A stretch of DNA of 55,773 nucleotides, from NCBI GenBank assembly GCA_016934715.1, contig JAFGSI010000063.1, positions 1-55,773 on the forward strand, written 5' to 3'. Below, one piece after another: positions 21,078-25,592 of this stretch. The DNA is from Anaerolineales bacterium (GTDB lineage: Bacteria > Chloroflexota > Anaerolineae > Anaerolineales > Villigracilaceae). Within the stretch, counting starts at the first letter, position 1; each line of letters begins with the position of its first letter. Both the position numbers and the translations under genes were made by a program. Under the pieces are notes generated by a model. It did no database searches, was not told the DNA's origin, and saw only the letters and a program-made list of their open reading frames with translations.

Positions 21078-22436
21078 TCATGGTTGAATGGATATGAAAT
21101 AGGACAGGACCCAGCCGGTGTTGCCTTCGCCATCCCGGACCTCGACCCAGGTCTGCAGGCCGACCTCCCAGCGCCCCTCCAGAACTACGATCGGGGTTCC
21201 TTCCGGCAGGTAGACCAGCCGCTCGCCATCGGGTGCCTCCCGCAGGTAGACACCCTGCCCGCCGGTGCCCAGGATGCGGGCCCGCATCGGCGTGACGGTC
21301 GGCGAGGGGGTCAGCGTCGGGGTGCGGGTCACCGTCGGCGTGCGGGTCGGGCTCGGGGTCGACGTGGACGTGAAGATCGGCGTCCGCGTGGGCGTCGGCG
21401 GGTCGAACGGGTCCAGTTCGGTGATCGGGACGACGACCAGTTTCAAAGCCACAGCCCGCTGCAGGCGGGTGGCAATGGAGGTCTGCAGGGCAACCACTTC
21501 CTGATAGGTGGGCTGCTGCGAGGTCCGCACGGTAATGCGCAGGTTAAGAACATCTCTTTCGTCGTTGATGACCAGGTCGACCAGCTGTCCTTCCGAAAGA
21601 GCGGTTACCTCCTGCACGACCACGGCCCGGATGGCGCGCATTTCATTGCCCTGTTCGACAAAGCGCAGGCTCAGGCCGACCAGCGGCACCGTCGTCAACA
21701 GGACCAGCAGGGCCGAGATGGCCATGCTGGACGGGATCGGCCCCCAGCGGTTTTCGAGCCTCGTCGGGTGGAAGCCAAGGGCGGCAAACACCACGATTCC
21801 GGCAAAAGAGATGGCGGTCAGGTTGGTAACGTACAGCAGCAGGGCGCCAAAGACCACCGCCGGGTCGGCCACCGCGATCCCGACCCCGACCGTGCACAGC
21901 GGCGGCATCAAGGCGGTGGCGATGGCCACGCCCGGCAGGGCCGCGGAGATGCGCGGCTGGGCCAGGGCGTAGGCCGCTGCGGCCCCGCCCGCCAGGGCCA
22001 CCCCCAGGTCGAAGGGGTTGGGACGCGTGCGAGCCAGGACCTCGTCCGGCAGCTCGCTCAGGATGCCGAAGGGCAGCAGGCTGCCGATCCAGGATAGGAA
22101 GGCCGCCAGGGCAATCGCCATCAGGCCGCCCTCCACGAGGGCGATCAGGGAACGCTGGAACATGGGCCGCTGGCCCGCAACCGAGGCCAGCGAGACGCCC
22201 AGGATCGGCGACATCAGGGGCGCCACCAGCATGGCCCCGATGATGACGGCCGCCGAGTCAGTCAGCAGCCCGAAGGTGGCGATCGCGCACGAAAGCACGA
22301 CCAGCAGGAAGAAGTCGAATCCCGGCGAGGCGCTGGTTTCCAGTTCCTCCAACACTTCGCGCCGCCGGGCGGCGGTCAGGCGGATGCCGAAGCGTCTGAG
22401 AAAACGTTGCAGGAAGCGTGTGCGTCTCTTGGGCAC
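21078..22436 (-). CDS. DUF389 membrane protein with Thr/Pro-rich linker and SH3b domain
   Basis: 452 residues, GTG start. Residues about 40-240 are the DUF389 membrane domain (DSAAVIIGAMLVAPLMSPIL, ATALMPPLCTVGVGIAV), then a soluble domain rich in beta-strand and helix. A TPTRTP-type linker follows (TRTPTVTRTPTLTPSPTVTP), and the last 60 residues form a bacterial SH3-like domain (GVYLREAPDGERLVYLPEGT, ending TGWVLSYFISIQP). SH3b domains often bind cell-wall peptides, so the C-terminus is probably outside. DUF389 function is not settled. It appears to be the first gene of the operon running to the AsnB-like gene. Confidence 0.87.
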   Translation of the reverse strand: MPKRRTRFLQRFLRRFGIRLTAARRREVLEELETSASPGFDFFLLVVLSCAIATFGLLTDSAAVIIGAMLVAPLMSPILGVSLASVAGQRPMFQRSLIALVEGGLMAIALAAFLSWIGSLLPFGILSELPDEVLARTRPNPFDLGVALAGGAAAAYALAQPRISAALPGVAIATALMPPLCTVGVGIAVADPAVVFGALLLYVTNLTAISFAGIVVFAALGFHPTRLENRWGPIPSSMAISALLVLLTTVPLVGLSLRFVEQGNEMRAIRAVVVQEVTALSEGQLVDLVINDERDVLNLRITVRTSQQPTYQEVVALQTSIATRLQRAVALKLVVVPITELDPFDPPTPTRTPIFTSTSTPSPTRTPTVTRTPTLTPSPTVTPMRARILGTGGQGVYLREAPDGERLVYLPEGTPIVVLEGRWEVGLQTWVEVRDGEGNTGWVLSYFISIQP

Positions 22437-22745: not shown

Positions 22746-23384
22746 TCAACGCTGCAACCAGGGCTCCATCGCCCGGGCGATGTTGCCGGGGGTATTGGCG
22801 CCCCAGGCGTTGCCGTCGATCTCATCGCCGGTGGCACGACCATTCGAGTCCAGCCGGTAGAAGATCGGCACGCCTTCCACGTTGGGAAAATCGGACCCCG
22901 GGACGCCCCAGCCCCAATCGTCCACGTCCACGCAGATCAGGTAGATTCCGTCAAAGGCTTCGACCAGGTCAGGATTTTGATCAGACAGACCGTCTGATAT
23001 GACGATGCAGGCCGGTCACCACTCGGCGGTGAAATACAGGATCGGTCGCTGGCCAAGGTCCTCTGCCAGGCGGGCATGGGTCGCCAGCTGGTCCATGAGC
23101 GGACCGTCCGAGCGGCGCAGGTCCAGGACCGTGGTATTGGGGCCGGCCGGGTCGCGGGTCCGGGTGGGGGTCCGGCTAGGAGCCGGGGTGCGGGTGCCCA
23201 GCGTCGCCGGAGGGGTGTTGTCCTTGGTAGGGGTGGGGGAAGATTGCGAATCCCCCGCCCCGGGCGCAAGGGTCGGCAGGATCTGGATGGGGGCTGTACC
23301 CAGGGTGCAGGCCAGCAGCGCCCCGCTTAATAAGCACAGGTAAAGGGCTCTACGGAACACTACGCTTCTTCCTCTCATGGTCAT
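22746..23384 (-). CDS. Thioredoxin-fold lipoprotein, candidate selenoprotein (UxxC)
   Basis: 212 residues if the in-frame UGA at 23018-23016 is read as selenocysteine. Residues 1-26 are a lipoprotein signal (LYLCLLSGALLAC), followed by a Thr/Pro-rich linker (TPAPSRTPTRTRD). The thioredoxin fold begins near residue 90: PILYFTAEW-U-PACIV, with U123 and C126 where thioredoxins have CxxC. The cis-proline follows at 173 (VEGVPIFYRLD), at normal spacing, and the frame stays open to a TGA at 22746. A hairpin just after the UGA has the GGUCU loop of bacterial SECIS elements. Its ATG overlaps the stop of the DsbD-N-like gene. Simple gene calling would split it into two fragments. Confidence 0.85.
22980..23018 (-). 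promoter_or_regulatory. UGA codon and SECIS-like hairpin
   Basis: The in-frame UGA (23018-23016) is followed after 17 bases by a hairpin at 22998-22980: AUCAGAC, loop GGUCU, GUCUGAU (7 perfect pairs). The apical loop, 24 bases after the UGA, contains the same GGUCU seen in the loop of the E. coli fdhF SECIS, and the distance suits bacterial SelB recognition. Confidence 0.78.
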
Positions 23385-23917
23385 GGATTGGCGAGCAGGT
23401 CTGCGCCGGGCAGGCGGACGCTGACGAGTCTGCCCATCACCGGCTGACGACAGGTCCGGCCGTTGCAGGCCATATAGGTGACCGAGACCTGGTCTTCGAC
23501 CCAGGCGCTCCCTTCCGGCAGAGCGACCGGCAGGCGCAAGGTCACCGGACCGTCGGGATAGATCCACAGATCATCTTCGCTGTCGACCAGCGGTATCGGC
23601 GCCTGGCTGGCGCTCAAGCCGCCGAGAGCCTGCAGGCGCGCGCCCGGCGGCAGTTCGAGCAGGGTCGGACGCCCCGCCCCTTCGGGGAGGGTATCCATGG
23701 CATAGACGTGCCAGCCGGATTCCAGAGGGGTGTAGGTGGCCGCCAGCCAGGCCGCCCGATGGGCATCCACCTCGAGGGTGATCTCGACCTGGACGCCGTT
23801 CTCGGCGAAGGAGGCCAGGGAGAGCGAGGAACCGGGTCCCAGGTCCGGAGGCGCGGCGCAGGCAGCCGGCAGGCTGAGGAGCAGCAAGAACAGGATCAGG
23901 GAAGAAAAACGACGCAT
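23381..23917 (-). CDS. DsbD N-terminal-domain-like lipoprotein
   Basis: 178 residues. A lipoprotein signal (RRFSSLILFLLLLSLPAAC) leads into an immunoglobulin-like domain of the DsbD-alpha/DsbC-corrector type: VQVEITLEVDAHRAAWLAAT, then SVTYMACNGRTCRQPVMGRL, whose two cysteines (CNGRTC) match the redox pair of nDsbD. It should sit outside the membrane and pass electrons to a partner; the overlapping next gene, a thioredoxin-fold protein, is the obvious candidate. Earlier in-frame starts lie at 23926 and in the promoter; 23917 or 23926 is used. Confidence 0.82.
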   Translation of the reverse strand: MRRFSSLILFLLLLSLPAACAAPPDLGPGSSLSLASFAENGVQVEITLEVDAHRAAWLAATYTPLESGWHVYAMDTLPEGAGRPTLLELPPGARLQALGGLSASQAPIPLVDSEDDLWIYPDGPVTLRLPVALPEGSAWVEDQVSVTYMACNGRTCRQPVMGRLVSVRLPGADLLANP

Positions 23918-23945
23918 CGGAACCATCCCAAAAAAAGATATTGCC

Positions 23946-24003: not shown

Positions 24004-25425
24004 TCAGGCGTCAAAATACAGGCTCATCTCGTAAGGGTGTGGACGGTTGCGCACGGCGAAGTACTCCTGTTCGCGCTTGTAGTGGATCCACTGGGCGATC
24101 ATCTCCTCATGGAAGACCTCCCCGGTGGTCAGGAAGTCGTGATCGGCCTCCAGCGCCCGCAGGGCCTCATTGAGCGACGAGGGCAGGGATTTGATCTCGG
24201 CCCGCTGCGCATCGGTCCAGGCGAAGATATTCTGGTCAATCGGACCAAAACCGGCCTCGGTCGGGTCGATCCGGTTGCGGATCCCATCCAAACCAGCCAT
24301 CAGCATGGCCGCCAGAGCCAGGTAGACATTGCAGGTGGCATCCGGCGGACGGAACTCCATGCGGGCCGTCTCGGGCGTATTGGCGTACTTGGGGATGCGC
24401 ACCGCTGCGCTGCGGTTGCCGAGCGAGAAAAAGGCATTGACCGGGGCCTCATAGCCGGGCACCAGGCGGCGGTAGGAATTGGTGCTGGGATTGGTGATCG
24501 CCAGCAGGGCCGGGCCGTGCTGGAGCAGGCCGCCGATGTAATACAGGCCCTCCTGTGACAGGCAGCCATACCCGTTCGCATCGTAGAACACGTTCTGGCC
24601 CTGCTTGAACAGGTGCTGGTGGAAATGCATCCCCGAGCCGGCCTCGCCGAAGAGCGGCTTGGGCATGAAGGTCACCGTCTGGCCGCGGGCGTGGGCGGTC
24701 ATCTTGGTGACATACTTGATCATCAGCGTGGCATCCCCGGACTGGAGCAGACCCATCATCGGGGTCTCGATCTCCGACTGGCCCGGCCCGCCGACCTCGT
24801 GATGGTGGTATTTGACCGGCACGCCCATCTTCTCGAGCAGGCGGACCATCTCGGTGCGGATCTTGTAGAGCTGGTCCTTGGGGGGGATGGCGTGATATCC
24901 ACCGTGGAGCGGGATGTAGTGCCCGTGCCCGCCCTGGGCACTGTTCCAGTCGGCCTCCTGGCTGGAGATGGTGTAACTGGCCCGGTTGACTCCGTATTCG
25001 TAGGATACGCTGTCGAAAATGTAGAATTCGAACTCCGGACCCCAGCGGCTCTCGTCGGCGATGCCGGTCGTCTGGAGGTAAGCCTCGGCGCGGATCGCCA
25101 CATTGCGCGGGTCGTTCTCGAAGATGGCGTGCGTATCGGCCTCCAGGGTGGTGCAGATGAAGGACAGGGTCGGCGTGTCCCAGAACGGGTCGAGGAAGCC
25201 GGTGCCCAGTTCCGGGACCAGGATCATGTCGCCCGCCTTGATCGATTTCAGCCCGACGGCCGAACCGTCGAAGCCGATGCCTTGCTCCATCAGGTCCGGC
25301 AGGAACTGGCTGGAGGGGATGGTCAGGTGGTGCCAGCGCCCCCACAGGTCGCAGAACTTCAGGTCGATCATTTCGACGCCGTTCTTCTCCACATACTCGC
25401 CTGCCTGGGCAAAGGTTTGGAACAT
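24004..25425 (-). CDS. glnA: Glutamine synthetase, type I
   Basis: 473 residues. Makes glutamine from glutamate, ammonia and ATP in the cytoplasm. Signatures: IGFDGSAVGLKSIKAGDMIL, RWGPEFEFYIFD, the ATP-site KPLFGEAGSGMHFHQHLF, and RMEFRPPDATCNVYLALAAM. The region that carries the adenylylation tyrosine in E. coli (NLYDLPPEE) reads NIFAWTDAQ here, so the Tyr is Phe and control by adenylylation is unlikely. GGGAGG precedes the ATG at 25425. It is divergent from a GGDEF sensor; a 12-bp palindrome, AGCATATATGCT (25507-25518), lies between them. Confidence 0.96.
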   Translation of the reverse strand: MFQTFAQAGEYVEKNGVEMIDLKFCDLWGRWHHLTIPSSQFLPDLMEQGIGFDGSAVGLKSIKAGDMILVPELGTGFLDPFWDTPTLSFICTTLEADTHAIFENDPRNVAIRAEAYLQTTGIADESRWGPEFEFYIFDSVSYEYGVNRASYTISSQEADWNSAQGGHGHYIPLHGGYHAIPPKDQLYKIRTEMVRLLEKMGVPVKYHHHEVGGPGQSEIETPMMGLLQSGDATLMIKYVTKMTAHARGQTVTFMPKPLFGEAGSGMHFHQHLFKQGQNVFYDANGYGCLSQEGLYYIGGLLQHGPALLAITNPSTNSYRRLVPGYEAPVNAFFSLGNRSAAVRIPKYANTPETARMEFRPPDATCNVYLALAAMLMAGLDGIRNRIDPTEAGFGPIDQNIFAWTDAQRAEIKSLPSSLNEALRALEADHDFLTTGEVFHEEMIAQWIHYKREQEYFAVRNRPHPYEMSLYFDA

Positions 25426-25592
25426 CGTGCCTCCCGTTTTTTTTATTTGTAGCATATCCGGCAAGAAATGCTCTAGTGGCATCCGTCCTGTCTATAGAAG
25501 GCAGACAGCATATATGCTATACTGCTAGATAATCACACCAATCTCAATGCGCGATTGGCTCCCTACCGGTCTGCAAGTAAAACCACTTCACC

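Follow-up and report, generated by a model that had tools for sequence, protein, structure and literature searches.

An apparently broken gene of an Anaerolineales bacterium is very probably intact, with its in-frame UGA codon read as selenocysteine (Sec) at the redox active site of a thioredoxin-like lipoprotein. (The window, in what follows, is the whole 55,773-nucleotide stretch of DNA that was analysed.) Sec decoding at UGA 23018-23016 is, in our estimate, close to certain. The whole explanation, in which decoding by SelA, SelB, SelC and SelD together with a downstream hairpin yields a lipid-anchored U-P-A-C protein that would serve a split DsbD-like relay, is held with strong but lesser confidence. 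The gene comprises the following features.

22746-23384, minus strand: selenoprotein gene encoding a 212-residue thioredoxin-like lipoprotein (ATG at 23384, UGA as codon 123, terminal TGA at 22748-22746).
23016-23018, minus strand: in-frame UGA, at the first position of UxxC (W-U-P-A-C), from comparison of TGA, TGC and TGT across the family.
22980-22998, minus strand: SECIS hairpin (5' arm 22998-22992, loop GGUCU 22991-22987, 3' arm 22986-22980), 17 nt past the UGA.
22749-23135, minus strand: thioredoxin-fold domain (AlphaFold2 model, mean pLDDT 94.6).

The only in-frame stop ahead of the terminal TGA is the one lying between TAEW and PAC, and 89 sense codons follow it. The N-terminus, MTMRGRSVVFRRALYLCLLSGALLAC, resembles a lipoprotein signal and has a lipobox; a Pro/Thr-rich linker comes next (all judged by eye), and then the domain that holds TAEW-UGA-PAC. 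The ATG overlaps the stop codon of the upstream gene in the sequence ATGA (23384-23381). The initial annotation had described a frame interrupted solely by a UGA in place of the first CxxC Cys and continuing for 89 codons, with a 7-bp, GGUCU-looped hairpin 17 bases beyond the UGA; both descriptions hold, the frame being that of the minus strand and the hairpin lying at 22998-22980, and its reading of the product as a membrane-anchored UxxC oxidoreductase is supported. Absent from it were the DsbD-N-like lipoprotein encoded next door and a relative in the same genus that has Cys and a decayed hairpin.

A protein query against a class sample of 298 genomes finds, besides Cys forms of the same family, a same-genus form (G164) whose corresponding codon is likewise TGA. 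The G164 protein is 55% identical over residues 44-212 and keeps WUPAC. Profile search of 152 genomes of the family yields 32 full-length homologues; in these, the codon at the UGA column is TGA in 7 (the genome of the window, G000, with G164, G322, G377, G380, G365 and G366), TGC or TGT in 25, and TAA or TAG in none. The inspection of homologues that the initial annotation had proposed thus finds Cys or UGA at this column and nothing else. (Left out of the count are G370, with a 42-residue C-terminal fragment preceded by unrelated sequence, and G339, G352 and other matches below 60 bits.) A wider profile, applied to 396 genomes of a further class sample, finds matches at E ≤ 1e-10 in eight, and since seven of these belong to the same family, the family is a narrow one in that sample. 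Weaker class-wide matches (below G179, 26-46% identity) are, where translated, other thioredoxin-like lipoproteins or Pro/Thr-rich stretches and are not counted; a 25-bit match in the bacterium's own genome (C48:170967) is an open frame, ResA/TlpA-like by eye.

Comparison of the hairpin, like construction of the tree, uses 34 rows (7 Sec and 27 Cys), comprising the 32 full-length homologues and two loci of a named collection, L069 and L055, the latter identical to L104 in the part of the protein that is compared. At the position of the hairpin (ATCAGAC-GGTCT-GTCTGAT in the window) 7 of 7 pairs form in every Sec row, as against 0-5 in the Cys rows; the loops of the Sec rows are GGUCU, AGUCU or AGUUU. 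The arms covary: 49 of 49 cells are paired, 8 are double-change cells and the covariation score is 0.558, with none of 500 shuffles equalling any of these three values. Changes on both sides are found at three of the seven pairs, a number that 127 of 500 shuffles equal, while the number of further pair types is equalled in 30 of 500. Slid control structures are 22-39% paired, and mononucleotide shuffling of the 60 nt past the UGA generates 7/7 pairs at that place in 146 of 200,000 trials.

The rule for bacterial SECIS elements, as given in a 2026 review (PMC13188914), specifies a loop of 3-9 nt with G in its first two positions, a stem of 4-16 bp, a distance of 16-37 nt from UGA to loop and an energy of -7.5 kcal/mol or lower. 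All seven Sec rows conform to it, compared with one Cys row of 27 (L093), the energy being that of the hairpin alone. The hairpin of the window (7 bp, GGUCU, 24 nt) passes narrowly, at -7.6 against the limit of -7.5. Evaluation of the sequence after the UGA with a bacterial SECIS model, which the initial annotation had recommended, therefore comes out in favour of a SECIS element, with conformity to the published rule and covariation in seven genomes. Folding energy is set aside as proof: in 44-nt sections the minimum-energy fold is something other than the hairpin for three of the seven Sec forms, that of the window among them, and the z-scores of the seven are modest (+0.36 to -2.07). (In 50-nt sections, the hairpin is within the minimum-energy fold of the window sequence, and of six of the seven Sec forms.) The terminal TGA was also considered as a Sec codon and rejected: the stable hairpin following it starts 33 nt on, which places the loop 39 nt away, beyond the SECIS range. 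By eye, this second hairpin and the T-rich stretch after it constitute a terminator.

The top fold match of the domain model is thioredoxin (Z 10.5, 102 aligned, rmsd 2.7), with DsbD-gamma at Z 9.6-10.0 (1vrs_E at Z 10.0, rmsd 3.1, 110 aligned), so that DsbD-gamma and ordinary thioredoxins are tied. The modelled domain belongs to the thioredoxin fold also by its active site, W-U/C-P-x-C, and by a conserved downstream Pro (P90), which is invariant among 22 aligned homologues. In sequence scoring against Pfam Thioredoxin (PF00085, cut-off 23.5 bits) the window protein and a second Sec form, L020, are below the cut-off (14.4 and 15.2), and the Cys homologues L022 and L021 above it (27.3 and 26). 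At E ≤ 0.1 the window protein is matched by none of the NCBIfam models.

Two genes lie immediately upstream on the same strand.

23381-23926, minus strand: upstream partner, a probable lipoprotein that has an invariant C-x4-C and the fold of the N-terminal (alpha) domain of DsbD (start at either 23926 or 23917).
24004-25482, minus strand: glutamine synthetase, by sequence match (in relatives by eye).

A lipoprotein-type signal can be recognised by eye in the upstream partner, two of whose Cys are invariant in 19 rows. The best 11 fold matches of its model are all N-terminal domains of DsbD or ScsB (Z 8.8-10.2), and the twelfth is an adaptin ear (Z 8.0). Its score against DsbD_N (PF11412) is 14.2 bits, below the cut-off of 25; 16 of the 19 members of its family match DsbD_N at E ≤ 1 (best 4.9e-6). 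A profile search of the PDB with this protein returned nothing at E ≤ 5, and its likeness to nDsbD is accordingly drawn from fold comparison and from Pfam scores that are weak. It precedes the homologue in 20 of 21 loci of the named collection (L049-L069, some partial; the exception is L069) and in all six further stretches (G164, G322, G377, G365, G366 and G345), three of which overlap the 21. A glutamine synthetase-like gene (by eye) stands before the pair in five of six relatives, G322 being the exception. On the downstream side, the product of the next gene (21078-22436, minus strand) is a DUF389 protein whose C-terminal, SH3_3-like part scores below its cut-off.

DsbD_TM, the remaining component of a DsbD-like system, is found above cut-off in 11 of 11 genomes, mostly as 240-290-residue frames. 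None of the ten family genomes encodes it on the contig of the pair, and because of this separation a relay through all three proteins is something that we infer. As proposed, the bacterium's own SelA, SelB, SelC and SelD would decode UGA 23018-23016, directed by the hairpin, and the product would be an extracytoplasmic, presumably lipid-anchored thioredoxin-fold protein, with the Sec of its U-P-A-C active site as the probable attacking residue. The electrons of cytoplasmic thioredoxin would be taken up by a DsbD_TM/CcdA-type membrane protein and handed to the selenoprotein, placed in the role of DsbD-gamma, from there to the neighbouring DsbD-alpha-like lipoprotein, and finally to oxidised extracytoplasmic proteins. 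We somewhat favour the view that the selenoprotein is a reductase partnered with its DsbD-alpha-like neighbour. On the more general proposition, that Anaerolineales have a three-protein split DsbD relay in which a selenoenzyme anchored to the membrane serves as the gamma-like thioredoxin, its Sec and Cys versions replacing one another from one sister species to the next, our judgement is evenly poised. If true, this would be a selenium-dependent passage of reducing power through the membrane to the cell surface.

On the other hand, the selenoprotein might act alone as a terminal reductase (serving methionine sulfoxide reductase, peroxides or apocytochrome c), on the model of Etrx or of ResA/CcmG proteins, and leave the DsbD-N-like neighbour to a separate pathway. 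We consider this possible but rather unlikely. Its fold matches ordinary thioredoxins as well as it does DsbD-gamma, and the surface thioredoxin lipoproteins Etrx1/2 of Streptococcus pneumoniae are described as serving methionine sulfoxide reductase (PMC3914529), but the two genes adjoin in nearly all loci, Sec and Cys alike, and overlap in the window; moreover, in DsbD the N- and C-terminal domains make a disulfide-linked complex, according to the title of PDB entry 1vrs.

In each of the seven comparisons made of the codons past the UGA, dN < dS; two of these comparisons set a Sec form against the Cys form G345. The values of dN and dS are 0.23 and 0.74 for the window gene and the same-genus Sec form, and 0.15 and 0.90 for G365/G366. 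Sequence comparison thus supports the view that the UGA stands for Cys, is tied to the SECIS element and lies in a frame that is evidently under purifying selection. A pseudogene or a sequencing error, with TGC or TGT mutated to or misread as TGA, would demand a single change, the named Sec genomes are metagenome assemblies and related genome G370 retains only its C-terminal fragment; we nevertheless give this explanation almost no credence. TGA occupies the same codon in seven separate genomes, which makes a sequencing error very unlikely, the frame beyond it is intact with dN < dS, and the covarying hairpin is missing from the Cys forms. The initial annotation had named a further sign of decay, close relatives that keep the UGA and accumulate frameshifts downstream: the frame is intact in six of six UGA relatives, and the sole damaged copy, that of G370, lacks the UGA region. 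TGA in seven genomes, covariation and dN < dS are the grounds for rejecting a pseudogene, a sequencing error and code-4 readthrough together.

A caution is that the seven Sec genomes are relatives of one another, and that the tree of the 34 rows accounts for the Sec label with only two changes. G345, a Cys form (WCPSC) of the same genus as the window, sits in a clade otherwise made up of Sec forms and keeps 5 of the 7 hairpin pairs; on both counts its sequence suggests that Sec has recently reverted to Cys and that the SECIS element is decaying. One origin of Sec and one loss fit the tree, and two origins are also compatible with it, the fork being weak (59/91). The family provides a clean series of Sec and Cys relatives, and G345 in particular should be useful for asking why Sec persists in an extracytoplasmic thioredoxin.

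The assembly that contains the window (4.09 Mb, 97.8% complete) has all four of the genes that the initial annotation had asked after: selA, selB and selD score 527, 357 and 367 bits, all above their cut-offs, and tRNA-Sec (selC) scores 70 bits and is called SeC by ARAGORN, with anticodon tca (UCA). (A second Rfam tRNA-Sec match, at 48.2 bits barely above threshold, is tRNA-Ser according to ARAGORN and is discarded.) Genes selA and selB are above cut-off in all seven TGA genomes, selC and selD having been searched for in the bacterium's own genome. Across the family, selA is above cut-off in 141 of 152 genomes and selB in 139; such near universality means that possession of the machinery cannot tell Sec from Cys forms, and it fails as a discriminator between them. 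The selD of this genome (G000:C14:882-1811) is itself a selenoprotein gene, with one in-frame TGA (CAG-U-ASK), and this UGA also has a SECIS-like hairpin with a GGUC-type loop. Readthrough of the UGA as another amino acid, whether Trp (genetic code 4) or, through a suppressor tRNA, Cys, might appeal to the Cys found at the site in homologues, but is improbable in the extreme in a genome that has the full Sec machinery and in which UGA terminates both the selenoprotein gene and the gene upstream of it, and at a site with a hairpin that obeys the SECIS rule.

Other candidate Sec-containing thioredoxin-like proteins are found in the class. A second subfamily of thioredoxin-fold lipoproteins with UGA at the first Cys is widespread (L117, L033, L140-L169) and has a member in the genome of the window (L143, G000:C48:76198-76689) with FFAFW-U-GTC; others have FFRFT-U-GTC. 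With L117 as query, 156 of 396 class genomes match at E ≤ 1e-9; among matches of at least 100.7 bits, 44 of 45 rows have an in-frame TGA (G288 does not), and weaker rows are mixed. Thirty loci of this subfamily were fetched: 14 have W-U-x-x-C, 12 of these conforming to the SECIS rule, and nine of 10 further loci that were translated have T-U-x-T-C. All NCBIfam scores for L117 are below cut-off. L033 (G127:C13:52609-55091), from another family of the class, is a W-U-S-A-C thioredoxin lipoprotein; a partial DsbD_TM/CcdA match is found on its strand no more than ~2 kb away, and the genome has selA. The hairpin of L033 (-5.7) misses the SECIS energy limit. Some L117 matches (among them G013, G252, G281, G094 and G516) have two or three in-frame TGA codons and are possibly multi-Sec proteins, or decaying.

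A 2006 survey counts three selenoproteins in Chloroflexi (PMC1794560); the 2026 review (PMC13188914) contains in its main text no word starting with Chloroflex- or Anaerolin-, and a search of open-licence PMC papers, judged by their titles and the starts of their abstracts, brought up no recognisable report of the window protein. UxxC thioredoxin-fold selenoproteins are a well-stocked class, represented in Table 1 of that review by thioredoxin (PF00085), PF13098 (thiol:disulfide interchange protein) and cd02966 (thiol-disulfide isomerase-like) (PMC13188914). The window protein resembles them in having Sec at the first position of UxxC in a thioredoxin-type protein; it differs in falling below the Pfam Thioredoxin cut-off, in its lipobox and Pro/Thr-rich linker, and in its DsbD-N-like lipoprotein partner. 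The Rcas_1661 thioredoxin-like (seleno)lipoprotein family, NF041057, has by its name a member that is presumably from Roseiflexus castenholzii, also of the Chloroflexota. This family, listed as DsbG-like and UxxC (PMC13188914), likewise consists of thioredoxin-like selenolipoproteins, but the window protein does not match its model at E ≤ 0.1. NF045694, the TsoB rhodanese/DsbD fusion-like selenoprotein, shares with our system a DsbD-like part in a selenoprotein; in contrast, its model has 572 positions and its motif is UxxxxU (PMC13188914), and while the window protein matched no model, Cys homologue L022 matches the C-terminal part of TsoB weakly (19.5 bits, cut-off 805).

DsbD and ScsB are comparable in that the neighbour has the alpha fold, the selenoprotein model aligns with DsbD-gamma and a DsbD_TM protein is present in the genome. 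DsbD itself comprises alpha, transmembrane beta and gamma in one chain; here, in contrast, the genes are separate, with DsbD_TM on another contig, two of the products are probable lipoproteins, and Sec is placed in the gamma-like active site. Etrx1 and Etrx2, whose host is Gram-positive, are to our knowledge not selenoproteins. They are described as thioredoxin lipoproteins that take part in the CcdA-Etrx-SpMsrAB2 pathways of S. pneumoniae (PMC3914529), and are likened to the window protein by that description, not by sequence, as surface thioredoxin-fold lipoproteins linked to CcdA. With no NCBIfam match at E ≤ 0.1, the window protein is called a new selenoprotein family of an already known kind, UxxC thioredoxin-fold with selenolipoprotein precedent. 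It adds a family that is missing from the NCBIfam models, and hints that ordinary annotation may readily truncate or overlook genes of this sort in the class.
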